64,000 nt of DNA from Pedobacter mendelii (GTDB lineage: Bacteria > Bacteroidota > Bacteroidia > Sphingobacteriales > Sphingobacteriaceae): the NCBI RefSeq assembly GCF_014635725.1, contig NZ_BMDJ01000003.1, positions 62,001 to 126,000 on the forward strand, given 5' to 3'. The notes beneath the pieces are model-generated. The model searched no databases and had not been told where the DNA came from. It worked only from the letters and a program-made list of their open reading frames with translations. Positions 2,624 through 29,159 of the stretch are shown here, piece by piece. The position numbers and the translations under genes were made by a program. The stretch's first letter is position 1. Each line of letters opens with the position of its first letter.

Positions 2624-4789
2624 TTAGAATACAACTTCTCCTGATGCCTGAATGTCTTTTGATGAATTGCCTACAGCAATCAGATATTGTCCCTTATCTG
2701 CAACCCATGCTTTTTTCTTTTCATCGTAATAAGAAAAAGCATCTTTATTCAGTATAAATTTTACGGTTTTGGTTTCGCCAGCTTTCAAAAATACCTTTTC
2801 AAAGGCTTTCAATTCTTTTCTAGGTCTTGATACTAAGGGATTAATCGGTTCTACATAGACCTGCACAACTTGCGCCCCATCTTTTTTACCTGTATTTTTA
2901 ATGTCAATTGAATAGCTAACCTGTTTATCTCCCGTTACTTTTTTTACGGCATTTTGGTAGGAGAAACTGGTATAAGATAAACCATGTCCGAATGGAAATT
3001 GTGGCTCAACATTATAGGTATCGAAATAACGGTAACCCACAAATATATCATCCTTATAATGTACAGTTCCATTTACGCCAGGAAATTCGCCAAGTTTATG
3101 CGCCGGCGAATCTTCCAGTTTTTTAGGAAAGGTCATCGGTAATTTACCTGATGGATTTACCTCACCGAAAATAATTTTAGCTAAAGCTGTTCCGCCTTCC
3201 ATGCCCGGGTACCAGCCTTCGATAATGGCTTTACTTTCGCCAACCCACTCGCGGACATCTATCGGGCCACCACCCATTAAAACGATAATGGTTTTAGGAT
3301 TGGCTTTTAAAACGGCTTTAATTAATTCGTTTTGCCCGAAAGGCATATTCATATCCGGTTTATCCACACCTTCTGCATCATAAGCATTATCATCCCATTT
3401 GCTATAGTCGTAACCGTGTGTCCATCCACAGAAAATTATAGCGGCATCTGTTTTACTGGCTATATTCACTGCTTCCTGAATTAATGTATCATCTGCCTGT
3501 TGATTTCGGGCAATTTTATATCCTTGTGCATATTGTACACTTATTCCACCGCCAACTAAATTCTTTATCCCTTGCAAAGGCGTAATTTCATATTTTGCTT
3601 TAACTTGAGAACTTCCACCGCCCATTGCATTTTCGCGATTTGCGTTCTGACCAATAATGGCTATACTTTTAATTTTACTTTTAGCCAATGGCAAAACATT
3701 ATCCTCATTTTTCAGCAATACAATTCCTTCTTCGGCAACCTTTAATGCAGTTTGTTGATGTGCTTTTGTATTATATGCACCAGGCGTTCTTTTTGCCGCA
3801 ATCATATTGGTTTTGAACATCACTCTTAAAATACGGCGAACTTTATCATCTACTAAAGCAACCGGAACTTTGCCGCTTTTAACTAAAGCAATTACGGTAT
3901 CGCCCATAAAAAACTGATCGTATTTTAACGGTGGTGTTCCAATGTCAGATCCCATTTCCAAATCGGTTCCATTTTCTAATGCTTCCATGGTGTTATGCAC
4001 CGCTCCCCAGTCGCTCATCACCAAGCCTTTAAAACCCCATTCTCCTTTTAATATATCGTTAATCAGATATTTGTTTTCCGTTGCATATTGCCCCCTGAAC
4101 TTATTATAAGCCCCCATTACCGTATTAACCTGCCCTATTTTAACGGCAGCCTCAAAGCCCGGTAAATAAATTTCGCGTAAGGCTCGTTCACTCATTTCCA
4201 CATTCACGGTTCCTCTATCTACTTCTTCATTATTGGCAGCGAAATGTTTTAAAGAAGCAGATACACCCTGAGCCTGAACACCTTTAATATAACCAACTGC
4301 CATTTGCGAAATTAGATAAGGGTCTTCACTCTGATATTCGAAATTACGACCGTTTAACGGCGAACGAATAATGTTAATACCTGGACCAAGGATTACATCT
4401 TTTCCTCTAAATTTAGCTTCGCTACCTAAAACCGCACCAAAATCGTATCCTAATTTTGGGTTCCATGTTGCAGCAAGTGCATTTCCTGTTGGAAGATACG
4501 TTCCGGCATCATTTACATTTTTTAAAGGTGTCCAACCTCTTCCATGTTCTATACGAACGCCATGAGGACCATCCGAAGTAACCATTTCAGGAATTCCTAA
4601 ACGTTTTACACCTCCTGAAGTAAAAGAAGAATTTGCATGCAACATGCCTACCTTTTCATCTAGCGTCATTTTTTTAATCAATGCAGTTATTTTTGCTTCA
4701 GTTGCAGGATTAAATAAACTTTGTGCATTAACGGTTAATACAGTTAGCATCAAAACACTTCCAACGAAGCCTGTTATTTTATTATTCAT
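2624..4789 (-). CDS. GH3 family glycoside hydrolase (beta-glucosidase type)
   Basis: A 721-aa periplasmic beta-glycosidase. It has a signal peptide (MNNKITGFVGSVLMLTVLTVNAQS), then the GH3 TIM barrel with DGPHGVR, the KHFAANNEE region and the nucleophile segment GLVMSDWGAVHN (Asp near residue 260). The (alpha/beta)6 sandwich follows (IAIIGQNA, VLMGGGPIDV, WYPGMEGG) and a C-terminal fibronectin-III-like domain (VGYRYFDT, FPFGHGLSYTSF). The length is normal for BglX-like enzymes. It is the last gene of the PUL operon, 18 nt after the GH2 gene. In a xyloglucan-like pathway it would remove backbone glucose from debranched oligosaccharides. A beta-xylosidase activity cannot be excluded from sequence alone. 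Confidence 0.93.
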   Translation of the reverse strand: MNNKITGFVGSVLMLTVLTVNAQSLFNPATEAKITALIKKMTLDEKVGMLHANSSFTSGGVKRLGIPEMVTSDGPHGVRIEHGRGWTPLKNVNDAGTYLPTGNALAATWNPKLGYDFGAVLGSEAKFRGKDVILGPGINIIRSPLNGRNFEYQSEDPYLISQMAVGYIKGVQAQGVSASLKHFAANNEEVDRGTVNVEMSERALREIYLPGFEAAVKIGQVNTVMGAYNKFRGQYATENKYLINDILKGEWGFKGLVMSDWGAVHNTMEALENGTDLEMGSDIGTPPLKYDQFFMGDTVIALVKSGKVPVALVDDKVRRILRVMFKTNMIAAKRTPGAYNTKAHQQTALKVAEEGIVLLKNEDNVLPLAKSKIKSIAIIGQNANRENAMGGGSSQVKAKYEITPLQGIKNLVGGGISVQYAQGYKIARNQQADDTLIQEAVNIASKTDAAIIFCGWTHGYDYSKWDDNAYDAEGVDKPDMNMPFGQNELIKAVLKANPKTIIVLMGGGPIDVREWVGESKAIIEGWYPGMEGGTALAKIIFGEVNPSGKLPMTFPKKLEDSPAHKLGEFPGVNGTVHYKDDIFVGYRYFDTYNVEPQFPFGHGLSYTSFSYQNAVKKVTGDKQVSYSIDIKNTGKKDGAQVVQVYVEPINPLVSRPRKELKAFEKVFLKAGETKTVKFILNKDAFSYYDEKKKAWVADKGQYLIAVGNSSKDIQASGEVVF

Positions 4790-4807
4790 GTATTTATTTT
4801 ATACTTT

Positions 4808-7555
4808 TTAGTTAAAATCGAACCAAAGGCTACCTTTATTCCAGGAATAATTTAGCTGCATATTTTTTTGGCTCTGCGGACCAAGTTTTTCAGCAGCTTG
4901 AAACTTAGTTCCTATTGCACTAATTCCATCTAAAAAACCTAAATCGCCATCAGGGAATGCAGGAGTGGTATTATTATTAGTCGCACCAGCTGCTTTTTGA
5001 GGTTTTAGCATTTGAAAAAATGTGCCCTTTTTTGAGGTGTAAATTGTAAATGGTGATTGTTTATTCTTTACCGTTACCCAATACACATTTGAATAATAGC
5101 CCTTAAACTCTGGGTATTTCCAACTTTCTCCGGTTATGGTGTTGTTAAAATCATTATTCCAAACGCCAAAAGTTGTGCCTTTCAATCTATTTTTCCAAAC
5201 GCGATAAGGACCATTTCCTTCCCATTTCATACCGGTGATGTTTTCTTCAGGATAGTTAAAAGTAATGCCCATAAAATCAACTTCGCCGCTTACGCTATAT
5301 TCATAATCGAGTTTAACAGTCTTTCCTGATGAGAAAATCCATTTCACTTTAAATTTCGCTTCGTTATTATAAATAGGCTCAATAATGTAATCATCGCCCG
5401 AGGCATAATGCTTAAACTCTTTAAGCTCACATTTAACACCCGCCAAAGCTGGTCCGCCAGAAATTGAAATTTCGGATTTCGCATTTTTAACATTCTGGAT
5501 GTAGCCTGTTTTTTTATCGAATTGATAAGAAATGCCATCAACAACAAGGGTTAAAGCCTTACCAGTTTCTGAAACATTTATTTTGGATTTTGAATTCGCA
5601 GTATTTGTTATTGGAGCAGCAGGCATTTTGATTGCCCAACTCCAGGTAAAAAGTTCTTGTTTAAAAGCATCAAAAGCTGTTAAATACAAAACATCGTTAC
5701 TTTTCCAGTTTGCAGGAAGTGGAATGCTTAAAAAACCCTTCTCGCCGGGAGATAAAGTAATGCCCTTAATTTTACCTGAGGCTACCAGACTTTGCTGATT
5801 ATTTGCTACTGGATTTGGCAGGTTTGATAACTTCCACTCGAAACTACATTGATTTAAGTTTGTGAAGCTATATTGATTTTCGACTAAAACCTTTCCATCA
5901 AAATTAGCAGGCAAATCTTTCATAGCAATTTGCACCGGCGACCAAATTTCTTTAATGGTATAAAAACTTCCTTCCTTTTCACGGTGTGGGCCTAAAATTC
6001 CATCTGGTGCGGCATTGCCTTGGATATCCATTTGGCCATTTCTGTCTAAACGAGTTACACCTTCATCAGCAAATGACCATAAAAATCCACCTGCTGCGTA
6101 AGGATGCTTCATCATCATAGACCAAAAATCATCCAAACCCGCACCATGCCCACCATCGTGCAAGCCATGCATAAACTCGGTCGGGAAAAACACGTCATTT
6201 CCGTATAAAGCTGTATTAACTACATAATTATAATCCGGGTAGTGTTTGGTATCGGTGCCATTGAAGCGCTCCCAAGGATGAATAACCAAACGTTTCTGGT
6301 TATCGTATTTTGCATACAGGTAATCTAAATCGTAATTGAAGCCACCTTCGTTTCCATTTGCCCACATTACAATTGATGGGTGGTTAACATCCCGAACAAC
6401 GAGTTCCTTTACGAGTTTTGTGCCAACTTCGGTATCGTATTTAGCCTGCCAGCCGGTTAATTCATTTATTACGAATAATCCTAATGAATCGCAGGCATCC
6501 AAGAAGCTCGGATCAGGCGGATAATGAGACATACGAACCGCATTCATATTCATCTCCTTAACCAGTTTTACATCTTCAATGTTAAGCACTTTGCTTAAAG
6601 TCCTTCCCGATTCAGGCCATTCGCTGTGCCTGTTAACACCTTTGAAAATCACTTTTTTATTGTTTACATAAAAGCCATCATGCGGGCGAAGTTCTGCTGT
6701 CCTGAAACCAAATTTTTGTTTCATCCGGTGGATTAGTCGGCCGTTGGCATCGCTTAAAGAAACAACAACCTGATAAAGATTTGGTGATTCCGGGTTCCAT
6801 AAGTTGATATCTTTAAACTGGCCTTTAAGTTTTGTAGCATTTTCAACAGATGTAATTTTAGAAGATATTTCTAATCCGACCTTTTCGCCGCTTATTTTTT
6901 GAACCTGAGCTTTTAAAACTGAACCTAATGGTGCATTTTCGGTGTAGGCATCGAGGTTAAATGAACCATTTGCTTTGGCATCGATAGCAATTCTGTCTAC
7001 ATGTGCTTTTGGCAAAATTTTTAAATACACCGGTCTGAAAAGGCCTCCAAAAAGCCAGAAATCTGCTTTCCTTTCTGCATTGTTTACCGATTTATCTGCA
7101 GACTGCTTACTTACTTTTACTTCCAGCAGGTTTTCACCATCAAAATTTAATAGGGGTGTAATGTTGTATTGAAAAGTATAAAACCCGCCCTGGTGTATCG
7201 CACCAGCTGACTTTCCGTTAATTTTTACTTCAGCCTCTGTCATTGCTGCCTCAAAAACGATGAAAATCTCTTTATCGTAATTGCTTTTAGCAACCTTAAA
7301 CTTGTATTTGTATTGCCCAGTTTCTTCAGGATTTTGGGTATCTTTATAATAGTTGTAAGTACCAAAACCTTGTTGTTCCCAATTTGATGGCACTTGTATT
7401 TTATCCCAAGTCCCACTTTTCATCCCGGTATTTACAAAGAAATCCCAAGTAACAGTATGGTCTTTATCTTTTCCGGATAAATATTGATATTGAGTTTCCT
7501 GAGCATTTAAATTTAGTGTAAGAAACACAGTTGCGCACATAAAAAATAGCTTCAT
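4808..7555 (-). CDS. GH2 family glycoside hydrolase (beta-galactosidase-like)
   Basis: A LacZ-type multidomain exo-beta-glycosidase. The frame opens at 7591, but the start at 7555 is preferred because it yields a clean signal peptide (MKLFFMCATVFLTLNLNAQ). The N-terminal sugar-binding jelly roll contains VPSNWEQQGFGTYNYYKD. An immunoglobulin-like domain follows, then the TIM barrel with FKGVNRHSEWPESGR, acid/base Glu in MWANGNEGG (near residue 400), and a probable nucleophile Glu in PTEFMHGLHDGG. A long C-terminal region resembles the LacZ small-chain domain (NGPYRVWKNRLKG). The likely role is removal of terminal beta-galactose or a related sugar in the periplasm. It lies 37 nt after the GH97 gene in the PUL operon. 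The specificity is an inference. Confidence 0.9.
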   Translation of the reverse strand: MKLFFMCATVFLTLNLNAQETQYQYLSGKDKDHTVTWDFFVNTGMKSGTWDKIQVPSNWEQQGFGTYNYYKDTQNPEETGQYKYKFKVAKSNYDKEIFIVFEAAMTEAEVKINGKSAGAIHQGGFYTFQYNITPLLNFDGENLLEVKVSKQSADKSVNNAERKADFWLFGGLFRPVYLKILPKAHVDRIAIDAKANGSFNLDAYTENAPLGSVLKAQVQKISGEKVGLEISSKITSVENATKLKGQFKDINLWNPESPNLYQVVVSLSDANGRLIHRMKQKFGFRTAELRPHDGFYVNNKKVIFKGVNRHSEWPESGRTLSKVLNIEDVKLVKEMNMNAVRMSHYPPDPSFLDACDSLGLFVINELTGWQAKYDTEVGTKLVKELVVRDVNHPSIVMWANGNEGGFNYDLDYLYAKYDNQKRLVIHPWERFNGTDTKHYPDYNYVVNTALYGNDVFFPTEFMHGLHDGGHGAGLDDFWSMMMKHPYAAGGFLWSFADEGVTRLDRNGQMDIQGNAAPDGILGPHREKEGSFYTIKEIWSPVQIAMKDLPANFDGKVLVENQYSFTNLNQCSFEWKLSNLPNPVANNQQSLVASGKIKGITLSPGEKGFLSIPLPANWKSNDVLYLTAFDAFKQELFTWSWAIKMPAAPITNTANSKSKINVSETGKALTLVVDGISYQFDKKTGYIQNVKNAKSEISISGGPALAGVKCELKEFKHYASGDDYIIEPIYNNEAKFKVKWIFSSGKTVKLDYEYSVSGEVDFMGITFNYPEENITGMKWEGNGPYRVWKNRLKGTTFGVWNNDFNNTITGESWKYPEFKGYYSNVYWVTVKNKQSPFTIYTSKKGTFFQMLKPQKAAGATNNNTTPAFPDGDLGFLDGISAIGTKFQAAEKLGPQSQKNMQLNYSWNKGSLWFDFN

Positions 7556-7592
7556 AATCATATTTGTATTTTTGACTGTAAACGTTAACAAT

Positions 7593-9584
7593 TTAATTTA
7601 TCGGATATACTTTTGCAGCCCAGCCACCACCACCAAACATATTTACTTTTAGTTTTGTATTCGAATTTACTTCAATAATTTCTCTTTTGTAGTCGGTTGC
7701 ATCTTTATCTGCATTTAAGCCATCCTTAAATACAATTGCCTGGAATTTCCCTTTCCCTAAAAAAGAAAAATCTATTGTTATTTCTCTTTGATTCCAATTA
7801 TTTAATGCGCCAATAAACCAATCGCTATTATGTTTTCGGGCAATAGCCGCATAAGCACCAACTTCAGCATTCAGCGCCACCGATTCGATAAAAACTGTAG
7901 GAATTGATGCAATAAAATCGGTACTTTCCTGCTCTTTCATATAAGCAGTTGGACTGTCGGCCATCATTTGCAACGGGGCTTCGAAAACAATAAATGTTGC
8001 CAATTGATGTGAACGTGTTCCTTGGCTCATTGGTTTTGAGTTACTAGGTTTAAATTCCGCTTTAGTGGCATTGCGCATTGCTCCTGGCGTGTAATCCATT
8101 GGGCCGGCAAGCATTCTGATAAATGGAATAGTTACATCATATTTGGGAACATCATCATTTGGTGTCCATTTTACATTTTCTAAGCCTTTAACGCCTTCAA
8201 AGTTTAAAACATTTGGATAAGTTCGCTGTAAGCCAGTTGGTTTATACATGCCATGAAAATCGATTAGAAGTTTATGAGCAGCAGCATTTTTTGCAATTTG
8301 ATAAACTGATGAAACCATTTTTTGATCATCACGGTCTAAAAAATCTATTTTAAAACCCTTCACACCCATTCTGGAATATTGTTCGAAGGCATTATCCATT
8401 ACTTTAGAAACTGCAAACCAACTTGCCCACAGAATTATTCCTACATTTTTTTGTTTTGCGTAAGTAATGATTTCAGGAAGGTTAATCTTGTCGGATACTT
8501 TAGTCATATCGGTTTCATCGCTCCACCCTTCATCTAAAATCACATATTCAACCTTATTTGCTGCTGCAAAATCTATGTAATACTTATAAGTTTGTGTATT
8601 TATTCCAGCTTTGAAATCCACACCACTAATGTTCCAGTCATTCCACCAATCCCAGGCTACCTTACCGGGTTTTATCCAATCCATATCAGCAATTCGCGAT
8701 GGTGAAGCCAACTTCTGCACCATATCGTTATCAAGCAGATCTTTATCGTTCTCACTTATTACAACAGCCCGCCATGGAAAGCTTCTTGTACCTTTAGTTT
8801 TCGCAATATAATCAGCCCTTTGGGTAACCATATAATTCATATTGTTAAAACCACCAGCCTTTTCTGCCAGCGGATATGGCGCAAACAAACCTTTTAACGA
8901 ATTACTGTTTTTTGGGTTTTTGCTGATAAACATACCCGGATAATCTTCCAAATCTGCTTCTAAAATAACCGCTTTCTTGGCAGAATTGATGTTGAACATT
9001 AAAGGTAAAAAAGCCAATGAATCATTAAACATTGCCGATACTCGGGTTTCAGTATATAACGATTCGAAAGAGGAAATAAATTGTTCCTCTCCCCTTAAGT
9101 CTCTAACATAAGGGATCAATGAAGTTTTATCTTCAGATAGATTAAAATTTGCCTCCTCGCTGTTTACCGTAATTTCGCCTTTTTTAGCCGTAGAAAACCG
9201 ATAAGCAACACCATCATTGTAAGCCCTGAAAGTAAGACTATAATCGCCTTTAAAATCAATAATTAATTGATTGTATTTATCCTGAACCGAACTTCTTTTA
9301 TAAATGGGTGTTACAAAACTGGTATTTATTGATGTTTTATTTGTTTTGATGATCTTCGGATTTTCACCTAAAACTTCTCCCGTTGCTAATGTTAAAGACA
9401 TATTCGATGGCGCTAAAACCACATCATTTTGATTTTTGACTGACCAGCTAATTTCAGACCCAATTTGAACCAAAATTTCATTGTTTCCGTTAGGTGATTT
9501 GAGTGTAAAGACTTTATCCTGCGCATAAACAAAAGCAGTTATGCAATTTAGCAAAATAAAAATCTGAGCTATTTTTATGCGCAT
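7593..9584 (-). CDS. GH97 family glycoside hydrolase (retaining, alpha-galactosidase-like)
   Basis: A 663-aa protein with the GH97 layout: signal peptide (to FVYAQD), N-terminal beta-supersandwich (about 25-290), TIM barrel (about 300-570) and C-terminal beta domain. Diagnostic stretches are RGEEQFISSFESLY, FPWRAVVISENDKDLL, KVAWDWWNDWN, EYVILDEGWSDETD and MAGPMDYTPGAMRN-like LAGPMDYTPGAM. The segment GVKGFKIDFLDRDDQ carries an Asp near residue 414, where retaining GH97 enzymes (alpha-galactosidases and beta-L-arabinopyranosidases) have their nucleophile, whereas SusB-like inverting enzymes do not. That points to removal of alpha-Gal or beta-L-Arap rather than starch attack. The gene starts 3 nt after the upstream GH2 gene. 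The catalytic assignment rests on family knowledge and needs an alignment. Confidence 0.9.
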   Translation of the reverse strand: MRIKIAQIFILLNCITAFVYAQDKVFTLKSPNGNNEILVQIGSEISWSVKNQNDVVLAPSNMSLTLATGEVLGENPKIIKTNKTSINTSFVTPIYKRSSVQDKYNQLIIDFKGDYSLTFRAYNDGVAYRFSTAKKGEITVNSEEANFNLSEDKTSLIPYVRDLRGEEQFISSFESLYTETRVSAMFNDSLAFLPLMFNINSAKKAVILEADLEDYPGMFISKNPKNSNSLKGLFAPYPLAEKAGGFNNMNYMVTQRADYIAKTKGTRSFPWRAVVISENDKDLLDNDMVQKLASPSRIADMDWIKPGKVAWDWWNDWNISGVDFKAGINTQTYKYYIDFAAANKVEYVILDEGWSDETDMTKVSDKINLPEIITYAKQKNVGIILWASWFAVSKVMDNAFEQYSRMGVKGFKIDFLDRDDQKMVSSVYQIAKNAAAHKLLIDFHGMYKPTGLQRTYPNVLNFEGVKGLENVKWTPNDDVPKYDVTIPFIRMLAGPMDYTPGAMRNATKAEFKPSNSKPMSQGTRSHQLATFIVFEAPLQMMADSPTAYMKEQESTDFIASIPTVFIESVALNAEVGAYAAIARKHNSDWFIGALNNWNQREITIDFSFLGKGKFQAIVFKDGLNADKDATDYKREIIEVNSNTKLKVNMFGGGGWAAKVYPIN

Positions 9585-9587
9585 AAC

Positions 9588-12437
9588 TTATAATTTTATT
9601 TTAATGATGGCCGGTTTTAAACCATTTGACGAGGCTTTTAAAGTAACTTCTCCTGCTTCGCCAGTAGATTGTACAATAACCTGTGCCAAGCCGCTAAATA
9701 ATTTTCTTTTCCAGTCGGCAGCAGGTTTTAACACCTGAAATAAACCAGGATCAGCATTAATATTATCCCAGCTTTGAACTTTCAAAATTGGTGTTGCCAA
9801 TATAGCGATGGTATTTTTGCCAACTTTTAGTACTGATTTATCAAGTGTAAAAGCATTTCCTTTTTTATTTTCTGTAAGCTTATCGGCTATTTTTTTCCCG
9901 TTGATGTAAATAGACTGTTGTTTGCCTATGCTTTTATAAAAGAAAGTGATTTTGGTTGCATCATTCCAATCTTCCAAATCAAAGTTTCCTCTATAAATTA
10001 ATGCCTTAACTTTTTTGCCAAATTCCTGTGTTCTTTCCTGTTTAAAAGCATAATCCCAATCAGTTAAATCTGTAGTAAGTTCGGTTATATCATCAATATT
10101 TGAAATAGGTTTTTCTTTAAAATCGTTAATTTGAATTACATCAATATGCTCAATAAATTGGTCGGGCTCTAACGAGGTTGGGTTTCCATTACCAACACCA
10201 ATAATTTTGGCCGGGCCACTGATTTGAAAATCAATCTCATTAACCGCTGTTGGAACAGCCTGATTAGAAGCATCTCTAACATCAACCTTTAAAATGGCTA
10301 AAGTAGATTTTTCTATAGGTATCGCTTCCTGTATTATGGAAACATGGGTTGGATTTGAGGTTGTTTTAACTTCATCCGTTAATATTTTTTTACCATTTTT
10401 AAATCCAACTGCTTCCAGTGTTCCAGGTGTATAATTTACGGTCCAGTTTAAATGTCCGTTGGGTTCCATCCGCTTTTTACCTAAACTTTTTTTATTCAGG
10501 AATAATTCTACTTCATCGCAGTTGCTGTAGGCTTTAACTTCAATTGGCTTTCCTTCGCTCCCTTTCCAGTTCCAATGTGGCAAGAGGTGTAAAGTAGGTT
10601 TATCTGTCCACCATGATTTTAAGTACCATGTATTATCTTTCGGGAAGCCACATAAATCAACCATACCGAAATAAGAAACTACCGATGGCCATCCGAAAGG
10701 TGTTGGTTCTCCACGGTAATCAAAACCGGTCCAGATAAACATTCCTGCTAAATAAGGACGGGCGGCATAATGTTTCCAACCATCTTCTAAACTCAGGAAA
10801 TTCTCATTTTGCCTGGTATCGTAAGCAGCGAGTTCATGCTTTTCCATATTATTGCTGTACAAACCTCTGCTTGCTACTGTTGATCCTTCTTCTGTTCCCC
10901 AACTAAACTGTGCAGGATATTTTTTATGTTGCTCATCAGTGTTTTTTGTTGCTACATAATTATAACCAAGTAAATCAATAGTTGTCGAAATTCCATTACC
11001 AATACCTCCGCTTATGGCTGCTGTTATCGCCCTTGTTGTATCGATGGTTTTAGCGAATGCCTGCATGGTTTTAGCAATTCTGGCACCTGTTATATTGCCT
11101 TCAATATTCCATTCCTCATTACCGATAGACCAACTGATGATACTTGGGTGATTGCGATCACGAATAATTAGCTTTTTAAGGTAATTTAAATTCTGTTCGG
11201 TAATGCCCATCAAACGGTTTTCATCAATTACCAGCATGCCCAACCTGTCGCATGCATCTAGTAATTCTGGTGTTGGTGGATTGTGCGAGCAACGATAAGC
11301 ATTGCTACCCATTTCTTTTAGCTTACTGATTCTAAAATATTGTACCTCATCTGGTAGTGCCACACCAACACCTGCATGATCCTGATGGTTATTTGTGCCT
11401 TTAACTTCAACTCGTTTACCATTTAAAAAGAAGCCTTTATCAGCATCAAATCTTATAGTTCTTATTCCGAAGTTTGTTTTATACTCATCAATTACTTCTT
11501 CGTTTTTTGTTATAGTCGTTAATAGCTGATACAGATATGGATTTTCCAAATCCCATAATTGTGGTTTAACTACCGGAATATCTATGGTAAATTCCTTTTC
11601 TGTTAATGCATTCAATTCAATATTTTGGAGCGAGCCAGATGCGACAACCTTGCCTTTTGCATCGACAATACTTTGTTTGATATTAAATTTATCATTTTCT
11701 AGTGCATCATTTTTTAAGGTTACGCTTGCTTTTACAAGTGCCTCATTATTATTTATCGTGCTACGTACAAAGGTTCCATTCGGTATTATATGTAAAGGAG
11801 CAGTTTTATTAAGCCAAACATGGCGATAAATACCGGCACCTTCGTAAAACCAACCTTCTTCTATAGTTACATCAACACGTACAGCAATTACATTTTCACC
11901 TCCATAATTTAAATAATCTGTAATATCATATTCGAAACCATGGTATCCGCTTGGTTCAATACCCAGGTAATGCCCATTAACCCAAACGATTGAATTTCTA
12001 AAAACGCCATCAAAAGCTATGCTAATTTTACGACCTAAATCTTTAGCTGGGATAGATATCGATTTACGATACCAGCCTACACTTGCATCTGGAAAATTAC
12101 GACCAATAGCTTTAAAACCGTGACTTAAGCTTGCATTTTTATCAAAGCCTTGTTCAACTGCCCAATCATGTGGCACATTTAACTTCCGCCAGGTTCTGTC
12201 GTCAAAACCTGGTGCTGCGGCTCCATCTCCATAACCAGTTTTAGCCAGATAAGAAAAATAACCTGTTCCATTGTAAAAATCTTTTTTAACATCGTAAGGA
12301 TGCCCTAAGGCAAAACGCCAACCAGTGTCTATCAATATATGTTCACGCTTTAACTCAATTTTATCCTGGGCAAATGATGCGGTTGCTTGGCTCAATTTAA
12401 TCAAAAGCAAAAAAGCCAATATTTTATATGATTTCAT
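9588..12437 (-). CDS. GH2 family glycoside hydrolase with DUF4982-type C-terminus (beta-galactosidase type)
   Basis: A 949-aa exo-beta-glycosidase with signal peptide (to ATASFAQD). The sugar-binding domain contains LNVPHDWAVEQGF and VGWYRKSISIP. A GH2 immunoglobulin domain follows, then the TIM barrel with VEVKGTNNHQDHAGVG, YRCSHNPPTPELLDACDRLG, acid/base Glu in SWSIGNEEWN (near 440) and a probable nucleophile Glu in SWGTEEGST (near 515). After FGMVDLCGFPKDNTWYLKSW comes a DUF4982-like domain (VKAYSNCDEVELFLNKKSLG) and a further beta domain. This architecture is common in Bacteroidota beta-galactosidases. It differs from the other GH2 of the operon, suggesting different linkages. It lies 14 nt after the second GH-A gene. 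Confidence 0.91.
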   Translation of the reverse strand: MKSYKILAFLLLIKLSQATASFAQDKIELKREHILIDTGWRFALGHPYDVKKDFYNGTGYFSYLAKTGYGDGAAAPGFDDRTWRKLNVPHDWAVEQGFDKNASLSHGFKAIGRNFPDASVGWYRKSISIPAKDLGRKISIAFDGVFRNSIVWVNGHYLGIEPSGYHGFEYDITDYLNYGGENVIAVRVDVTIEEGWFYEGAGIYRHVWLNKTAPLHIIPNGTFVRSTINNNEALVKASVTLKNDALENDKFNIKQSIVDAKGKVVASGSLQNIELNALTEKEFTIDIPVVKPQLWDLENPYLYQLLTTITKNEEVIDEYKTNFGIRTIRFDADKGFFLNGKRVEVKGTNNHQDHAGVGVALPDEVQYFRISKLKEMGSNAYRCSHNPPTPELLDACDRLGMLVIDENRLMGITEQNLNYLKKLIIRDRNHPSIISWSIGNEEWNIEGNITGARIAKTMQAFAKTIDTTRAITAAISGGIGNGISTTIDLLGYNYVATKNTDEQHKKYPAQFSWGTEEGSTVASRGLYSNNMEKHELAAYDTRQNENFLSLEDGWKHYAARPYLAGMFIWTGFDYRGEPTPFGWPSVVSYFGMVDLCGFPKDNTWYLKSWWTDKPTLHLLPHWNWKGSEGKPIEVKAYSNCDEVELFLNKKSLGKKRMEPNGHLNWTVNYTPGTLEAVGFKNGKKILTDEVKTTSNPTHVSIIQEAIPIEKSTLAILKVDVRDASNQAVPTAVNEIDFQISGPAKIIGVGNGNPTSLEPDQFIEHIDVIQINDFKEKPISNIDDITELTTDLTDWDYAFKQERTQEFGKKVKALIYRGNFDLEDWNDATKITFFYKSIGKQQSIYINGKKIADKLTENKKGNAFTLDKSVLKVGKNTIAILATPILKVQSWDNINADPGLFQVLKPAADWKRKLFSGLAQVIVQSTGEAGEVTLKASSNGLKPAIIKIKL

Positions 12438-15880: not shown

Positions 15881-15911
15881 TTTGCGGAATGATTGAATTT
15901 GATAAAATTGG

Positions 15912-15935
15912 AGCAGACGTATATAAACGTCTGCT
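15912..15935. promoter_or_regulatory. Intercistronic hairpin between binding-protein and hydrolase genes
   Basis: A perfect 9-bp stem (AGCAGACGT at 15912-15920 with ACGTCTGCT at 15927-15935) and 6-nt loop lies in the largest gap (68 nt) within the PUL from SusC onward. On the minus strand it is followed by a moderately U-rich stretch (CCAATTTTAT). It may attenuate or stabilise the transcript so that SusC/SusD/binding protein are made in excess of enzymes. The structure is seen; the function is inferred. Confidence 0.5.
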
Positions 15936-15948
15936 ACCAATAAGAATA

Positions 15949-22015: not shown

Positions 22016-24862
22016 TTATTTAAATTTGGTTATTGTTTGTTCACCATTATACTGAATGGTTTTATCGGGCTTTTGGTTAAAATTTAAAGGCTTTGGTTTT
22101 TTAGGGTTTATGAAAACGATGTTAAACGTTCTATCCTTTACCATTCCCTTGTAAGCTCCTTTACGTTCTGAAATGGTTAAAGATTTTGAAACTTCATTAT
22201 AACTGAACTGAATAGTAGCAAAAGCACCTTTTTCATAATTATAGTTTAGTCCCTCATCCTCATAAAGCGTAAACGTTCCATCTTTTCCTCCATAAACATA
22301 TAAAGTGATTGGGTCGGCAGGTTTCTCATCGGTATATTGTATTTCTGGTCCATAAGGAATAATAGAACCATCCTTAACATAAATTGGCATTTGATTGTAT
22401 GGTGCATTTGCAGTTATCATTTGACCACCTTTAGTATATTTTCCGGTATATAAATCGTACCATCCATTACCTTCCGGCAGATAAACTTTTCTTGTTGTTA
22501 CGCCATATTTGTAAACCGGATTGATAAGCAATGATGGCCCGAACATGTATTCATCAGCAATATTATTAACTTTTGGGTCTGCTGCATAATCCATAACCAA
22601 ACCACGCATAATGGTATAATCTTTTTGGTAACTCGCTCCAGCAAGCGAATAGATATAAGGCATTAAACGGTAGCGTAATTTGTTATAGTAAAGAATACTT
22701 TTATAAGCAGGATGATTTTCTGGGGCAATATTATAAATTTCGCGATAAGGAAATTGACCATGTCCTCTAAATAAAGGAACAAAAGCACCAAATTGATACC
22801 ATCTGGTATTTAGTTCTCTCCACTCCGCCAAATCTTTTTCATTGGGTTTTTCATACCTGCGCTCTACAGAAAAACCACCAATATCCATGGTCCAGTAAGG
22901 TAAGCCTGATAAGGAAAAATTAATGCCAGCAGAAATCTGCGATTTCATGTCTTCCCATCTTGATGCAATATCACCACTCCAGGTTGCTGCTGCATAACGC
23001 TGCAAACCACCATAAGCAGAACGGGTTAAGATAAATACGCGATCGTTAGGGTTTTCTTTACGCTGCCCTTCATAAACACCTTTTGAATTTTGCAATGGAA
23101 AAGCATTAAAATACTTAGTTCCCGAACCTAAATAAGTTGGAGTCATATTTTGTTTTCTTTCCCAGATAGGCAAATTTGAGTGGATATCGGGTTCAGTAGC
23201 ATCCATCCACCAGGCATCGATACCTTTTTTGTATAACGTTTTGTTCATTAAATTCCAGAACATGGTACGGGCTTCAGGATTAAAAGCATCGTAAAAAGTA
23301 GATTGGTAGCCCAGCCAGTCTTTTCTTCCATCGGCAATATTTCGTTTATACAAAAAGCCATTTTTGTTCATCAGCTCGTAATTGGAATTGCCTGTGTAAA
23401 ATTTCGGCCAAACCGAAATCATTAAACGCGTATGGTAAGTATCGTGCAAGGTTTTAATCATACCATCTGCATCAGGGAAACGACTTTTATCAAATTCATG
23501 TGTACCCCAGCTATCCGGTTTCCAGTATTGCCAATCAAGAACAATATTATCTAATGGGATTTTACGATCCCTGAATTCTTTAACCACGCCCAAAAGTTCT
23601 TCCTGAGTTTTGTACCTTTCTCTGCTTTGCCAAAAACCCATTGCCCATTTCGGCATTAAAACGGCTTTACCGGTAAGCGTTCTGTAACCGCTGATTACCT
23701 CGTCAGCATTTGCGCCTGATACAAAATAATAGTTAATTTCATTGCCCGATTCGGATGAAAAAGCGTACTGATTCTTGTCCGCCTGAGGTATTGGCGTTAA
23801 ACACTTGATGGATAGGTAGGATTCATTACCATCAGGAATCCATTCTATTTTTAAGTCGTATTTTTTATCTTTCAACATTTCCGTTTCCACAACTGCCGAA
23901 CCAGGATTCCAGGCTTGTCTCCATTTATCGACAAGCATTTCGCCATTAATCCAAATTTTTATGTAGCCGGCATATTTAACATTGAAATGTTGAAGACCAG
24001 AATATCCGGAAGAAATTTTACCTTCCCATTTTACAATTCCATCCGCCATTTTAAAACTGTCGGGGAATTTTTTCATATCGCTTAAAAAAGAATAGTCAAT
24101 ATCCGATTCTGCTCTCTTAACAACTATCTCGCCTGTTTTCTTATTCGAATAACTAGCTGTTAACCAACCCCTTTCTCCTTCTTTAGAAAATAAACCCAAA
24201 CTTGAAAGTGGCTGATAATCTCTGATATCGCCAACTTTGGTAATCGAATAATTATCCCAAAGAATACCATAATTTTTATTGCTTAATAAGAATGGAATTG
24301 CAACATCAGTATTGTTTTGAAGTAATAAGACCTGTTTACCTTTATAGTTCATCATATCATCTTGATGTTGGCCCAAACCATAAATTGCTTCCTCTTCTGG
24401 AGAATTAAAAATCTGTTCAATCTGATAGCTTGCTTCACCATCATTAGATACAGCTTTAAATAATCTTGATGCATTCTGCTTCTCTTCAAGAATATTTTTT
24501 CCGTTAATATCCTGATATTGAATTTGGCCAGTTGTTATATTAACCTTTGCAATAAGTGCATGAGTTTTGAGCTGTATATAATCGCCAGCTTCTGAAACGG
24601 TATATTCGGGCTTAGATTTAACAGGTATAACCATTAAACTTGGTTCAAGCGAAAAATCATCGGCTGATGTAATTACGGCATGGATTATTTTATCAGATAT
24701 TACATTTAGCTTAATTTGTTTTCCAATACTCGAATTATTGTTAATTGGGTATACAATTATTCCATTATCTATTTTTTTGTAATGGATATTTTGTGCAGAG
24801 CAAAAAACAGGGATAGCAAATAAAAATACTGTTGTACTTAAAATGGTAGAAATTGTTCTCAT
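22016..24862 (-). CDS. GH31 family alpha-glycosidase with PA14-type insertion (alpha-xylosidase type)
   Basis: The frame extends to a GTG at 24883, but the ATG at 24862 gives the cleaner signal peptide (MRTISTILSTTVFLFAIPVF). After the N-terminal beta-sandwich (about 30-230) there is a PA14-like insert (about 230-360: VKWEGKISSGYSGLQHF, GYIKIWINGEMLVDKWRQAW). The GH31 barrel carries PKWAMGFWQSRERYK, NIVLDWQYWKPDSWG, nucleophile Asp in WWMDATEPD (near 554) and acid/base Asp in ATWSGDIASRW. PA14 inserts and the DWQYW/HEFD pattern are characteristic of xyloglucan-active alpha-xylosidases such as BoGH31A and CjXyl31A. The likely job is removal of non-reducing-end alpha-1,6-xylose from xyloglucan oligosaccharides. 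It is the first gene of the operon. Substrate specificity is inference from architecture. Confidence 0.9.
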   Translation of the reverse strand: MRTISTILSTTVFLFAIPVFCSAQNIHYKKIDNGIIVYPINNNSSIGKQIKLNVISDKIIHAVITSADDFSLEPSLMVIPVKSKPEYTVSEAGDYIQLKTHALIAKVNITTGQIQYQDINGKNILEEKQNASRLFKAVSNDGEASYQIEQIFNSPEEEAIYGLGQHQDDMMNYKGKQVLLLQNNTDVAIPFLLSNKNYGILWDNYSITKVGDIRDYQPLSSLGLFSKEGERGWLTASYSNKKTGEIVVKRAESDIDYSFLSDMKKFPDSFKMADGIVKWEGKISSGYSGLQHFNVKYAGYIKIWINGEMLVDKWRQAWNPGSAVVETEMLKDKKYDLKIEWIPDGNESYLSIKCLTPIPQADKNQYAFSSESGNEINYYFVSGANADEVISGYRTLTGKAVLMPKWAMGFWQSRERYKTQEELLGVVKEFRDRKIPLDNIVLDWQYWKPDSWGTHEFDKSRFPDADGMIKTLHDTYHTRLMISVWPKFYTGNSNYELMNKNGFLYKRNIADGRKDWLGYQSTFYDAFNPEARTMFWNLMNKTLYKKGIDAWWMDATEPDIHSNLPIWERKQNMTPTYLGSGTKYFNAFPLQNSKGVYEGQRKENPNDRVFILTRSAYGGLQRYAAATWSGDIASRWEDMKSQISAGINFSLSGLPYWTMDIGGFSVERRYEKPNEKDLAEWRELNTRWYQFGAFVPLFRGHGQFPYREIYNIAPENHPAYKSILYYNKLRYRLMPYIYSLAGASYQKDYTIMRGLVMDYAADPKVNNIADEYMFGPSLLINPVYKYGVTTRKVYLPEGNGWYDLYTGKYTKGGQMITANAPYNQMPIYVKDGSIIPYGPEIQYTDEKPADPITLYVYGGKDGTFTLYEDEGLNYNYEKGAFATIQFSYNEVSKSLTISERKGAYKGMVKDRTFNIVFINPKKPKPLNFNQKPDKTIQYNGEQTITKFK

Positions 24863-24947
24863 AAAGCTTATTGTAAATCGCACTTCGCGTTTACCTAAAT
24901 ATTTGGTTATTGATAAGCTAAAGGTAAGTGACTATTAAAATTTGGCA

Positions 24948-24985
24948 GGTATGCAAATGTTTAAGAATAGGTGCTCAAATGTTAA
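24948..24985. promoter_or_regulatory. Direct repeat upstream of GH31, candidate HTCS operator
   Basis: The motif GGT-NNN-CAAATGTT occurs twice with a 22-bp period (CAAATGTT at 24954-24961 and 24976-24983). This puts both copies on the same helix face, as expected for the AraC-type output domain of the HTCS. It sits in the 169-bp gap between the regulator and the first PUL gene. Two copies only; function is inferred. Confidence 0.45.
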
Positions 24986-25031
24986 CTTGCATAAAAAAAT
25001 GCCTTTATAACTATTTAAACACATTTAAGTA

Positions 25032-28000
25032 TTATTTTTTGTTGGATTTTTGTGTAATATATGCTGAAGGAAGCATGTTAAATTCTTGTTTAAAATATTT
25101 TGTAAAATATTTTGGGTTGTTGAATCCAACCTCATAGGCAATTTCTGAGATAGTTAATTGCGATTTTTCTAAAAGCTGCGTTGATTTTTTAAGGCGATAA
25201 TAGCGGATATATTCTACCGGTGATTTACCTGTAAGTAGTAATACTTTTTTATACAAACTTACCCTGCTCATGTTCATCTCACCACTTAGCTGATCTACAG
25301 AATATTCGGAATTAGAAACATTATTTTCGATAAGTAAAGTAAGTTGACGCATAAATTTTTCATCAACGGATTCTATTTCATCAGTCTTCGGGCTAATATT
25401 TACTTGTTTTTTAAATTTTATTTCTGACGATTTAAGTTGGGTGAGTTGATTCTTAATTTTAAAAAGTAAAATTTCGAAATTAAAAGGCTTCATTAAATAA
25501 TCGTTTGCGCCAGTTTCCAAGCCTGAAATTTGCATTTCTTCACCTGTAAGCGCAGTTAACAATATCACCGGTGTATTGGCAGTACGTTGATCGCCTTTAA
25601 TTTTCCTGCATAAATCAATGCCATTCATTTCAGGCATACTCACATCACTTACAACCAAATCGGGATGAACCGATAACACCTTTTGCCAACCTTCTTTTCC
25701 ATTTGAAGCTTCAAAAATCTGATAATATTCATTTAGGTTATCTTTTAGATAAAAACGAAAATCATCATTATCCTCAACCAGTAATAATATGGGCTTCTTA
25801 TTATATTCGGAAAAATTGGGTTGATTTTTTTCTTCTGCTACTATCCTTAAAGGTGATTTAACTGTAAAACTGAGTTTACTGTTTTCTACAATAGTTACAT
25901 CGGCTTCATTAAAAGGAATTTTAACAGTAAACTTAGAACCAACACCAACTTCGCTTTCGGCCCAAACTTTGCCACCATGCATGCGTACAAACTCTTTTGT
26001 TATCGATAAACCTATTCCACTACCCTGATTAACAAAAGAACCTGGAATATCACTTTGAAAAAAGCGGTCGAATATTCTATTTAATTTATCTTCATCAATC
26101 CCAATACCATTATCGGTTATATTAATTAAAAGTATGGTTTTATTACTTTCGCTTTGCATTGAGCTTAGCTTAACCGCAACTTCGCCACTTTCAGGTGTGA
26201 ATTTAAAGGCGTTAGAAAGAAGATTAAATAAAATTCTTTCGATTTTATCGTAATCGAACTCGGTAATAAGACTCGTTAAATCTGATTCAAAATGAAATTT
26301 TATATTCTTTTTATCTGCAATATCTGTAAATGAATAGGTTAACTCCTTGATAAAATCAACAATATCACCAAGTTTATAATCGAGTTTCAACTGCTGAACC
26401 TCCATTCTTCTAAAATCCAGCAACTGGTTAACCATGTTAAGCAATCGCCTTCCATTTCTATGGATCATTTGCATTTGTTGCTTTTTCCCAATTTCTTCAG
26501 TCTGTTTAATCAGCTTTTCCATTGGTGTAATGATAAGGGATAAAGGTGTTCTAAACTCATGACTTATATTAGTGAAGAATTTAATCTTCATTAAGTCTAA
26601 TTCATGCATTCTTTTTGCCTCAAGTCGCTCCTGTTCAATTGCAAATTCTGTTTTTAATTTCCTTATTCCTCTCTGTCTAACCAGAAAAAGTACACCGCCG
26701 ATGAAAGATAAATACAGAAGGTAAGCCAAAGGTGTTTTCCAGAAGGGTGGTAATATCTTTATCGAAATTCTTTTCTCGTTTGCAACCCAATCTCCAGCAG
26801 AGTTGGTAGAAGCTACTTTAAAAATATATGATCCTGGATCTAAATTGGTATATGTTGCTCTTCTTAAATTACCTGAAGGTTCTTGCCATGTTTTATCAAA
26901 ACCCTCCAGCATGTACCTGTATTTTATTTTATCAGGATTAAAATAGTTTAATGCAGTAAACTCTACTGATATAACATTGTTCCTGTGATTTAAAGATAGC
27001 TTAGAGGTACTATTCAGAATTTTATTTAAAATTATTTCTCCATCAAATTCTTCATCCACACCAACGGCTTTATTAGCAATTTGTAATTCTGAAAGAGCAA
27101 TTTCGGGTTTGCTATGATCGGTTTTAATATCTTCTGGTTTAAACATATTAAAGCCATTCGCTCCTCCAAATATGAGTTCTCCTTTTTTTGTAACATAAGC
27201 AGAATTAACATTAAATTCTTTCCCCTGCAAACCATCTTGCTGATCATAATTCCTAAAAGAATAAGCAAAACCATTAACATTTTTTTTTACTTTAATAAAT
27301 GTTAAACCTTTTGTAGTACTTAACCAAAGGTTTTTGTTTTTATCTTCTACAATATTAAGGGTTGTATTATCTGGCAAACCATTTTCCATCCTATATACTT
27401 CGAAATGGGCTTTTCTTGGGTCATACCGATTTAGTCCATCTCTGGTTGTTATCCAGATAAAACCATAGCTATCTTCTAAAATGTCATAAACATTTCCATT
27501 ACTTAATGAATTTTTAAGGTGAGGGTCTGCATTAAAATGCGTGAATTTATTTGTCTTTTTTTCCCAGAAATCCAATCCTGATGATGTACCGATATATGCA
27601 TTGCCATTCTTATCCTTTAACAACGCTGTTATAAAATTAGAAGCAACGCTATTTTTTGATGAATATGCCTTATAATGAGTAAAGATTCCATTTGACCTAT
27701 CGAGTACATCAATTCCGGCACCTAAAGTTCCAATCCAAAGTTTTTTATCATCACCTTCAATAATATCCCAAATCCGGTCATCACCTAAACTATTTATATT
27801 TTTAGTTTCGTGCCGATAATGTTTAAAATTGTTTCCATCAAAGCAATCTAAACCACCGAAATATGTACCAATCCAAAGTTTTTTTTCATCATCTATAAAT
27901 AAGCTGACAACGATATCATTACTTATGCTATTTTGATTACTTGGATTATGCTTGTATTTCAGGTAGCTCTGTGTTTTTCTGTCGTAATATATTAAGCCTT

Positions 28001-29159
28001 GTCCATTGGTACCAATCCATAAGTTACCTTTATCATCTTCTACAAATCTATTAACGTCATCGTAAGGCAAACTGTTTGCATTAGAAGCTAAATGTTTAAA
28101 TAAAGGGAATTTAATAATATTTTGATGGTAGTAGCTTATACCTTTTTTAAAAGTACCTACCCAAATGATGCCAGAATCGTCTTTATAAAGACTTACAACG
28201 CTGTTTTGGCTAAGCGTTTTTGGGTCATCTTCCCTACTTTCAACATAACTTATTTCAAAAGTTTTTTTATCTAAAACATTAATTCCACCATGGTCAGTTC
28301 CAATCCAAATTTGGCCGTTGTCATCTTGAATAATTCCTGTTATAAGATTATTATTTAAGCCACCTTGCTTTTTGTTGAAATATTTTACCTGATTTATTTT
28401 AGGGTCATAGTAAGTTAAGCCATCTTGATCATTAAAACTCCAGATAAAGAACGCTCCGCTATTATCAATAAAAAACCGTAGAGGCTTGAACTCTGTTTGC
28501 TCTTTAGTTTTTAAAAGGGTAAAACGCTTTTTTATTTTTAGAGAACCTATTTCTATCAATTCGAAGGTTTTATCAGTATGAAGAACATAGAAATTACCTT
28601 TATCATCGTTTTGGATGTGGGCAACTGGTGCTATGCCAAGTGCTCCCAAATTTTTATCAGCACATTTTAATTGAATGGTTTGTTTTTTATTCGGTTGATA
28701 AATAAAAACACCATCACCACCTGCATTAAACCAAAAGTTGCCCAGCTTATCTTTTTTAACCCCTATTATTTTTGTGGTAAATATGCCTAGTTTTTTAAAA
28801 TATGGGGCAACATCCTGTATAAAACTTTGTTTTTCAAGATCAAAAATATTTAAACCCGCACGTGTATCAATTAATAATTTAGCATCAGGAAGTTCACTTA
28901 TGGTGTTTATAAAATCATCACTTAAAGTTTTAGAATCTCTTGAATTGTGTTTAAAAACTTTAAATTGGTAACCATCATAACGATTTAGGCCTGCCATGGT
29001 ACCAAACCACATATATCCCTGAATATCTTTATAAATAGCGGTTACCTGATTATTTGAAAGACCATTAGATAAATCGAGTCTTGAAAACTGCAATTGACTT
29101 TTTTGAGCCGAAGCGAATCCACAAGTAATCAGTAAAATAGAGATAATTTTGAGACGCAT
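25032..29159 (-). CDS. Hybrid two-component system regulator (HTCS) of the PUL
   Basis: A 1375-aa one-protein sensor and regulator. Signal peptide (to GFASAQ), periplasmic double beta-propeller built from Reg_prop repeats (WFGTMAGLNRYDG, WIGTDHGGINVLD, WIGTYFGGLDCFDG and others, about 25-690), a Y_Y_Y domain (about 735-810), one TM segment (LAYLLYLSFIGGVLFLV), histidine kinase with phospho-acceptor His in NISHEFRTPL (near 865) and ATPase motifs (DNGIGID, GSGIGLSITKEF). A receiver domain follows with Asp in VVSDVSMPEMNGIDLC (near 1170), then an AraC-type HTH (MSRVSLYKKVLLLTGKSPVEY, ISEIAYEVGFNNPKYFTKYF). It is expected to bind an oligosaccharide in the periplasm and switch on the operon beginning at GH31. 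It has all kinase and receiver residues. Confidence 0.95.
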   Translation of the reverse strand: MRLKIISILLITCGFASAQKSQLQFSRLDLSNGLSNNQVTAIYKDIQGYMWFGTMAGLNRYDGYQFKVFKHNSRDSKTLSDDFINTISELPDAKLLIDTRAGLNIFDLEKQSFIQDVAPYFKKLGIFTTKIIGVKKDKLGNFWFNAGGDGVFIYQPNKKQTIQLKCADKNLGALGIAPVAHIQNDDKGNFYVLHTDKTFELIEIGSLKIKKRFTLLKTKEQTEFKPLRFFIDNSGAFFIWSFNDQDGLTYYDPKINQVKYFNKKQGGLNNNLITGIIQDDNGQIWIGTDHGGINVLDKKTFEISYVESREDDPKTLSQNSVVSLYKDDSGIIWVGTFKKGISYYHQNIIKFPLFKHLASNANSLPYDDVNRFVEDDKGNLWIGTNGQGLIYYDRKTQSYLKYKHNPSNQNSISNDIVVSLFIDDEKKLWIGTYFGGLDCFDGNNFKHYRHETKNINSLGDDRIWDIIEGDDKKLWIGTLGAGIDVLDRSNGIFTHYKAYSSKNSVASNFITALLKDKNGNAYIGTSSGLDFWEKKTNKFTHFNADPHLKNSLSNGNVYDILEDSYGFIWITTRDGLNRYDPRKAHFEVYRMENGLPDNTTLNIVEDKNKNLWLSTTKGLTFIKVKKNVNGFAYSFRNYDQQDGLQGKEFNVNSAYVTKKGELIFGGANGFNMFKPEDIKTDHSKPEIALSELQIANKAVGVDEEFDGEIILNKILNSTSKLSLNHRNNVISVEFTALNYFNPDKIKYRYMLEGFDKTWQEPSGNLRRATYTNLDPGSYIFKVASTNSAGDWVANEKRISIKILPPFWKTPLAYLLYLSFIGGVLFLVRQRGIRKLKTEFAIEQERLEAKRMHELDLMKIKFFTNISHEFRTPLSLIITPMEKLIKQTEEIGKKQQMQMIHRNGRRLLNMVNQLLDFRRMEVQQLKLDYKLGDIVDFIKELTYSFTDIADKKNIKFHFESDLTSLITEFDYDKIERILFNLLSNAFKFTPESGEVAVKLSSMQSESNKTILLINITDNGIGIDEDKLNRIFDRFFQSDIPGSFVNQGSGIGLSITKEFVRMHGGKVWAESEVGVGSKFTVKIPFNEADVTIVENSKLSFTVKSPLRIVAEEKNQPNFSEYNKKPILLLVEDNDDFRFYLKDNLNEYYQIFEASNGKEGWQKVLSVHPDLVVSDVSMPEMNGIDLCRKIKGDQRTANTPVILLTALTGEEMQISGLETGANDYLMKPFNFEILLFKIKNQLTQLKSSEIKFKKQVNISPKTDEIESVDEKFMRQLTLLIENNVSNSEYSVDQLSGEMNMSRVSLYKKVLLLTGKSPVEYIRYYRLKKSTQLLEKSQLTISEIAYEVGFNNPKYFTKYFKQEFNMLPSAYITQKSNKK

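Follow-up and report, generated by a model that had tools for sequence, protein, structure and literature searches.

A candidate starter enzyme family in a xyloglucan-type operon of Pedobacter mendelii

How does a bacterium begin to degrade xyloglucan when its xyloglucan locus encodes none of the classical endo-enzymes? This question is raised by an operon of ten co-directional genes in a 64,000-nucleotide stretch of the 4.5 Mb Pedobacter mendelii genome (contig NZ_BMDJ01000003.1, positions 62,001 to 126,000; the whole stretch is called the window below). Judged by its homologies, the operon is very probably a xyloglucan utilization locus. It includes two related genes, GHA1 and GHA2, whose products belong to a family that we call GHA. 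From genomic context and homology, on which this reading rests, we consider it rather probable that GHA1 is a new type of opening surface endo-beta-1,4-glucanase that replaces the vanguard endo-xyloglucanase, while GHA2 may be a second endo-enzyme. The original prediction for this DNA had raised the possibility that a new enzyme starts degradation; the context presented here supports that idea, and the candidates are two genes that it had listed without drawing this conclusion.

The operon and its likely substrate

The ten genes run on the minus strand from 24883 down to 2624 and are transcribed in the order GH31-SusC-SusD-SGBP-GHA1-GHA2-GH2-GH97-GH2-GH3, where SGBP denotes a surface glycan-binding protein. 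A gene for a hybrid two-component sensor (HTCS), also on the minus strand, lies 148 nucleotides upstream of GH31, such that the predicted arrangement of ten co-directional genes plus HTCS within 2624-29159 was recovered in full. The predicted intergenic gaps of 3-68 nucleotides held in part: by longest open frames the gaps within the operon are 1-36 nucleotides, and the value of 68 is obtained between SGBP and GHA1 if GHA1 starts at an ATG 20 codons further in. The individual features are as follows.

25032..29159, minus strand: HTCS, putative regulator (Pfam Reg_prop, Y_Y_Y, HisKA, HATPase_c, Response_reg, HTH_18)
22016..24883, minus strand: putative GH31 alpha-xylosidase with PA14 insert (Pfam; best PDB match BoGH31A, 1073 bits)
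18815..21979, minus strand: SusC-type TonB-dependent transporter (NCBIfam TIGR04056, above cut-off)
17214..18797, minus strand: SusD-type protein, SGBP-A-like (best PDB match BACOVA_02651, 5e75, 309 bits)
15949..17184, minus strand: IPT/TIG surface glycan-binding protein, SGBP-B-like (Pfam SGBP_B_XBD, 98.6 bits, cut-off 26.4)
14123..15940, minus strand: GHA1, predicted lipoprotein, proposed surface endo-beta-1,4-glucanase (xyloglucanase), likely starting at the ATG 20 codons in (fold, glutamate pair, position, context)
12452..14116, minus strand: GHA2, paralogue of GHA1, probably periplasmic, possible second endo-enzyme (about 50% identity to GHA1)
9588..12437, minus strand: putative GH2 beta-galactosidase, GalA-like (NCBIfam NF041462, 1112 bits, cut-off 900)
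7593..9584, minus strand: putative GH97 retaining alpha-galactosidase (NCBIfam NF053844, 935 bits, cut-off 800; PDB 3a24, 681 bits)
4808..7591, minus strand: GH2 protein whose closest model, under its cut-off, is exo-beta-1,4-galactosidase BT4156 (NCBIfam NF049891, 1011 bits, cut-off 1700)
2624..4789, minus strand: putative GH3 exo-glycosidase (Pfam GH3; best PDB match 8va7, 605 bits)

The assignment to xyloglucan, already suggested by the original prediction, is backed by three components of the operon. First, the top three PDB matches of the GH31 protein are all alpha-xylosidases (BoGH31A at 1073 bits, then 1000 and 868 bits); the fourth, MeXyl31, which is also named alpha-xylosidase, drops to 310 bits, and entries with other names score lower. 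Clustering with alpha-glucosidases, which had been proposed as the refuting outcome, is thus the opposite of what was found. Indeed, the ligand-surrounding residues that Hemsworth et al. name for BoGH31 (D441, W316 from PA14, W513, D553, R613, D630, D659 and H709; PMC4967831) are all kept (8 of 8, by a hand count on an alignment with a numbering offset of one residue). Second, SusD finds its best PDB match in SGBP-A of the Bacteroides ovatus locus (309 bits; the next other protein scores 92 bits); its NCBIfam match is weak (52 bits, cut-off 725). SusC was matched at the level of the SusC family, and the xyloglucan-type pairing rests on SusD. Third, the Pfam domain matched by the SGBP, SGBP_B_XBD, is named for xyloglucan binding by SGBP-B; in PDB, another sugar-binding protein, 3orj, ranks first (90 bits) and BACOVA_02650 second (74 bits). 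Because GH31, SusD and SGBP resemble parts of the characterised B. ovatus locus, we identify the operon as of xyloglucan type. For arabino-galacto-xyloglucan, which had been offered as a variant substrate, we found no specific evidence.

A Pfam scan of eight of the ten operon proteins and the HTCS yielded GH3, GH2, GH97, GH2, SGBP_B_XBD, GH31 with PA14, and the HTCS domains, and left two proteins, GHA1 and GHA2, blank at E <= 1. No GH5, GH9, GH12, GH16, GH44 or GH74-type propeller appeared among the eight operon proteins, in agreement with the earlier remark that the usual GH5_4, GH9 or GH74 endo-enzyme is absent.

The GHA family and its genomic settings

To see which gene follows the SGBP in comparable loci, we located loci through SusD alone and obtained 16 SusD relatives of at least 350 bits in 395 genomes, our own excluded. 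The gene behind the SGBP was GHA in four of them (L021, L024, L026, L028) and a GHA fragment in a fifth (L034). A BACON-GH5 gene occupied the position in another four (L175, L176 and L184 by Pfam, the BACON match of L184 falling just under the cut-off, and L177 by 96% identity to L176), a Pfam-checked GH10 in one (L180), and unscanned genes of 732-735 amino acids in the GH10 place in three (L181, L182, L185). The remainder comprised GH39 in L178, with GH5_4 two genes on, GH2 in L183, and a contig end in L179. For the GH5 of L176 the closest match is CjGH5D, and BoGH5A ranks fourth. This slot is thus frequently occupied by a polysaccharide-cutting enzyme, and GHA takes the position that GH5_4 has in other loci. 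The fragment in L034 (G227:C1:1159519-1159845) is a GHA match of about 109 amino acids in an otherwise similar SusCD locus, and is perhaps a decaying copy.

GHA occurs in 15 of the 395 Bacteroidota genomes, an even draw, one of which holds the fragment only. A contig scan found at least 476 GHA relatives among the 597 pattern matches listed, the best 80 of which were fetched. GHA1 and GHA2, about 50% identical to each other, are the only two members in their own genome at E <= 0.01, and GHA1 is 94% identical to a Pedobacter jejuensis protein, the best named one among the matches listed. Across 55 diverse aligned members N262-E263 is invariant and E403 is conserved in at least 90%; both glutamates are invariant in a subset of 32. 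The AlphaFold 2 model of GHA1 has a mean pLDDT of 92.4, and the rows of the structural comparison are GH79 and GH51 proteins (Z 25-31, 14-22% identity). The Foldseek list for the same model also includes GH44, with xyloglucanase 2yih, at 11-13% identity. Judging from the model, then, GHA is structurally near GH51, GH79 and GH44.

Profile searches set GHA apart from these families. With a GHA profile built from 55 of 99 members or their like, the 99 members score 654-949 bits, whereas only 3 of 16 GH51 proteins are matched, at 18.6 bits at most, and none of eight GH44 proteins. In the reverse direction, a GH51 profile matches 64 of the 99 at 12-34 bits, versus at least 567 bits within GH51, and a GH44 profile matches 9 of 99 at up to 57 bits, or 7 of 99 at up to 28 bits after trimming. 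GH44 was initially the candidate for nearest family, as hhalign gave E 1.6e-16 against 1.3e-13 for GH51 with type IX secretion system (T9SS) tails contained in both alignments; once these tails had been trimmed the values became 4.3e-7 and 7.8e-13, which places GH51 nearer, and that candidate was rejected. Among the 55 aligned members, PF06964 (GH51) matched one, at 0.015, and PF12891 (GH44) was not among the 14 Pfam families matched at E <= 0.1. Similarly, the NCBIfam arabinosylfuranosidase ArfA was matched weakly and far under its cut-off in 34 of the 55; GHA1 and GHA2 score 25-26 bits against a cut-off of 625. A relation to GH5_4 found no support either: Pfam Cellulase did not match GHA, and a BLAST of the GH5 set against GHA gave none at E<1 among the ten matches listed. 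What GHA1 and GHA2 do share with GH51 alpha-L-arabinofuranosidases is the fold, by the model, and, by alignment, a catalytic glutamate pair in like places together with an RFPGG-like motif; they differ from them in having no Pfam GH51 match and in genomic setting. A plasmid collection searched for annotated GHA homologues gave no match, and in the open-access literature no described family was recognised as GHA. By these profile comparisons, GHA is one discrete family with no Pfam or NCBIfam assignment, and the enzyme family may be new.

The genomic settings of GHA were examined in 94 loci around GHA matches, annotated by similarity to window genes and Pfam-checked representatives; removing three duplicates and one fragment locus leaves 90. 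Two settings recur. In the xyloglucan type, GH31 alpha-xylosidase, SusC, SusD, SGBP and GHA are followed by GH2, GH9, GH3 or GH74, and in the mannan type GHA accompanies SusCD, an SSF transporter, GH130 and an epimerase, together with GH26 or GH27. A number of loci mix the two. Directly upstream of GHA (n=90) lies an SGBP-like gene in 34 loci, a mannan-type binding protein in 5, an epimerase in 14 and an unassigned gene in 13. GH5_4 was found in 1 of the 94 loci from the GHA search; among the other stretches that were fetched it was found in 7 of 37. A tree built by a quick method from 99 members shows clustering of the locus labels, with 18 changes for four labels against a shuffled mean of 37.8, and none of 200 shuffles reached as few. 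GHA1 of the window belongs to a starred group that consists of six Pedobacter rows of xyloglucan type and nests in an unstarred group of 15, eight of them unassigned; GHA2 falls in a separate deep group. Xyloglucan-type GH31 (E <= 1e-200) is present in 19 of the 395 genomes and coincides with GHA in seven, with GHA alone in 8 and GH31 alone in 12 (Fisher p 9e-7, or 9e-6 with our own genome excluded, both computed without regard to relatedness). Six of these seven genomes have GHA and GH31 together on a single fetched stretch; among these stretches, L022 represents a mixed mannan locus and L032 has no SusCD. In the seventh genome, G039, they lie on different contigs. A further subgroup (L030, which equals L097, and L083, L085, L087, L103, L104 and L109) combines SusCD-SGBP-GHA with a large FG-GAP/UnbV_ASPIC-type protein close downstream.

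The closest comparison is provided by six Pedobacter loci, the window included. In the three nearest relatives (L035, L036, L037) GHA1, GHA2, GH2 and GH2 follow one another with no GH97 between the GH2 genes, and in L038 and L082 GHA2 is missing and GH9 lies between the two GH2 genes. In the fetched stretches, the four loci with GHA2 therefore show no GH9 and the two without GHA2 have it. The end of the HTCS gene adjoins the operon in all five relatives as well.

Where would these enzymes act? GHA1 has a lipobox-like cysteine and a proline-rich linker and is predicted to be a lipoprotein. By a stricter rule 55 of 99 GHA proteins are lipoprotein-like. Under a relaxed rule, 96 proteins divide into 70 with a lipobox-like motif, 6 with a T9SS-like tail and 20 with neither, about 12 of which carry, by eye, Cys-Lys, Cys-Ser or a similar motif; the T9SS sorting domain Por_Secre_tail is matched by Pfam in 7 of the 55 aligned members. 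The relaxed rule also accepts GHA2. In L036 and L037, however, the orthologues of GHA2 carry an ordinary signal peptide, and for this reason GHA2 is probably periplasmic.

In the mechanism that we infer, from endo mode and substrates to cell location and induction, GHA1 would sit as an outer-membrane lipoprotein beside SGBP-B, SusD and SusC and would cut the beta-1,4-glucan backbone of xyloglucan by a retaining two-glutamate mechanism, with E263 as putative acid/base and E403 as putative nucleophile. SusCD would take up the resulting oligosaccharides, and GHA2 may shorten the longer pieces. GH31 would then take off alpha-xylose, the GH2 enzymes beta-galactose and GH3 backbone glucose, with the HTCS presumably responding to a fragment.

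More broadly, we lean only slightly towards the view that GHA is an undescribed glycoside hydrolase family whose members serve Bacteroidota as surface endo-beta-1,4-glucanases acting on branched hemicelluloses. It would have xyloglucan and (beta-galacto)glucomannan lineages, could take the GH5_4 slot in xyloglucan loci, and its lineages would be separated by a few residues close to the active site, N159, S162, Q270 and Q320 of GHA1. These residues come from a comparison of 17 xyloglucan-group and 23 mannan-group proteins, hand-picked from the tree, in which seven columns show a difference kept by at least 80% of the proteins in each group. Two of the differing columns (xyloglucan/mannan), N159/S and S162/D, follow the RFPGG motif; Q270/E comes after the acid/base, and Q320/V is a further one. 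Since the two groups are also clades, the differences may reflect descent and not function.

Weighing the alternatives

Several observations weigh against GHA1 as a replacement for the endo-xyloglucanase. Of the 12 distinct GHA loci of xyloglucan type found beyond the window, 7 also contain GH9, and one of these 7 has a GH74-like gene as well; in such loci degradation may be started by another enzyme than GHA. The single GHA-search locus with GH5_4 (L046) carries it between SGBP and GHA1, and this co-occurrence speaks against strict replacement. The GH9 of L038 and L082 occupies the place of GH97, not that of GHA2, and because the six Pedobacter loci form two groups of close relatives, the exclusion between GHA2 and GH9 amounts to one difference, not six; relatedness is likewise ignored by the co-occurrence statistics for GHA and GH31. 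Nine weaker SusD relatives (262-327 bits, L186-L194), which lie outside the slot count, have FG-GAP, GH27, unknown or GH10 genes following the gene for the binding protein. On the tree, the xyloglucan-type rows L024, L029 and L093 and all seven mixed rows fall in the mannan-rich part, and 58 of the 99 rows fit neither locus rule within the fetched stretch. For GH3, every NCBIfam match is under its cut-off, and a beta-glucosidase specificity is not fixed by the models. Finally, the nearest named sequence family of GHA is an exo-acting one, the GH51 arabinofuranosidases.

The main rival explanation is that GHA proteins are GH51-like exo-acting alpha-L-arabinofuranosidases and that the strain scavenges oligosaccharides released by others through a locus with no endo-enzyme. 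The weak NCBIfam and PDB matches of GHA to GH51 arabinofuranosidases and the closeness of the GHA1 structure to GH51 (Z up to 30) are consistent with it, and Flavobacterium sp. F52, reported in PMC11892949 to lack a GH5_4 gene, is described there as growing on oligosaccharides and not on xyloglucan. We nevertheless regard this explanation as unlikely, for in other loci the slot behind the SGBP is often filled by an endo-enzyme, and GHA proteins are predicted to be lipoproteins or exported by T9SS. In addition, GHA often accompanies GH130, GH26 and an epimerase in mannan-type loci, where arabinofuranose is not expected. Two loci, L041 and L042, moreover have a GH43 gene beside GHA.

A second alternative keeps GHA as an endo-enzyme and changes its substrate: it would act mainly on glucomannan, especially eudicot beta-galactoglucomannan, and the operon would serve both polymers, with GH97 removing alpha-galactose. 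According to PMC9614514, beta-galactoglucomannan, a glucomannan of eudicot primary walls, bears a beta-Gal-alpha-Gal side chain and resembles xyloglucan. Its degradation would require an alpha-galactosidase, loci of this kind might serve both polymers, and a GH97 alpha-galactosidase with two GH2 enzymes would suit that side chain. The occurrence of GHA in mannan and mixed loci also fits. So does the distribution of GH97 itself, for which we fetched the loci of eight of the nine nearest homologues from 121 genomes of the family. One (L252) shows GH2-GH97-GH9-GH2 behind HTCS and an alpha-xylosidase-type GH31 (both in L260), and another from the same genus (L250) has SusC-SusD-SGBP followed by BACON-GH5, GH39, SASA esterase, GH2 and GH97 (SusC and SusD in L262). 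A third (L251) has GH97-GH2-GH3 behind SusCD genes unlike the xyloglucan pair, and the other five are without such a setting, L256 lying beside a SusCD set on the opposite strand. GH97 is thus not mere noise, as two near homologues lie in xyloglucan-type loci.

The three nearest relatives, however, lack the gene in this operon, so it does not define the substrate; GH97 was accordingly rejected as proof of a variant substrate, and the earlier argument from the added GH97 to a variant is not supported. Against the glucomannan alternative stand, moreover, the placement of GHA1 in an entirely xyloglucan-type tree group and a separate mannan-type locus in the same genome (L173, C4:116001-135000), which comprises SusCD, GH26, GH5, GH27, SSF and GH130 and has no GHA. 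We therefore consider this alternative improbable, more so than an arabinofuranosidase role.

Outside the operon, the genome has six PF00150 (GH5) matches, three above 30 bits and three at 20-23 bits. The three stronger ones sit in L173 and in a GH30-bearing locus (L174), and as GH5_4 was not matched in either locus at E <= 1e-3, they are not GH5_4. There are two GH16 genes and a single GH9, which is fused to a polysaccharide deacetylase domain (L172:8076-10610). GH44 was not found, and one GH74-type protein used as query had no genome match in a search without positive control. That one of these GH9, GH5 or GH16 genes starts xyloglucan degradation from elsewhere, as the endoxyloglucanases scattered over the genome of Cellvibrio japonicus (PMC11892949) would allow, is very improbable in view of the GH9 fusion, the settings and subfamily of the stronger GH5 genes, and the lack of GH44.

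The operon has neighbours on both sides. To its left lie a plus-strand AraC gene and then a separate locus (L115, genome C3:42001-62000) with GH106, a GH78-type rhamnosidase, a small GH31 and two SusCD sets. Elsewhere in the window a T9SS adhesin-type cluster on the minus strand (35676-45536, 34638-35639 and 32637-34628) begins with a 3286-aa protein containing 21 Ig_7 stretches and a CHU_C type IX secretion domain (35676-45536), followed by PorP/SprF and OmpA-family protein genes.

Known systems and significance

How does the Pedobacter operon compare with systems already described? With the B. ovatus locus (SGBP-A BACOVA_02651, SGBP-B 02650, GH5 02653) it shares a PA14-type GH31, SGBP-A, SGBP-B, GH2 and GH3. 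In B. ovatus, GH5 and GH9 serve as endo-enzymes, and PMC4967831 depicts them at the cell surface, whereas here GHA1 and GHA2 would take their part; the Pedobacter operon also has no GH43 and has the added GH97. The xyloglucan utilization locus of Flavobacterium johnsoniae, as described in PMC11892949, is likewise a SusCD-based xyloglucan locus from an environmental member of the Bacteroidota. It contains GH5_4, GH39 and CE20, of which GH39 and CE20 are not among the Pedobacter proteins scanned, and deletion of its GH5_4 is reported to abolish growth on xyloglucan (PMC11892949). GH44, which has xyloglucanase entries, resembles GHA1 in fold, but Paenibacillus polymyxa 2yih shares only 12% identity with it. 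That one enzyme can act on both glucomannan and xyloglucan is illustrated by the GH26/GH5_4 protein of Segatella copri PUL 7 (PMC12704710), although it belongs to other catalytic families than GHA.

Surveys across genera have taken GH5_4 as a marker of xyloglucan utilization in Bacteroidota from soil and plants (PMC11892949). If GHA is indeed another opening enzyme, such surveys would miss part of the xyloglucan users, and the family would allow xyloglucan and glucomannan specificity to be compared within one fold. GHA1 would then represent another bacterial way of starting the breakdown of xyloglucan, a common plant cell-wall polysaccharide.

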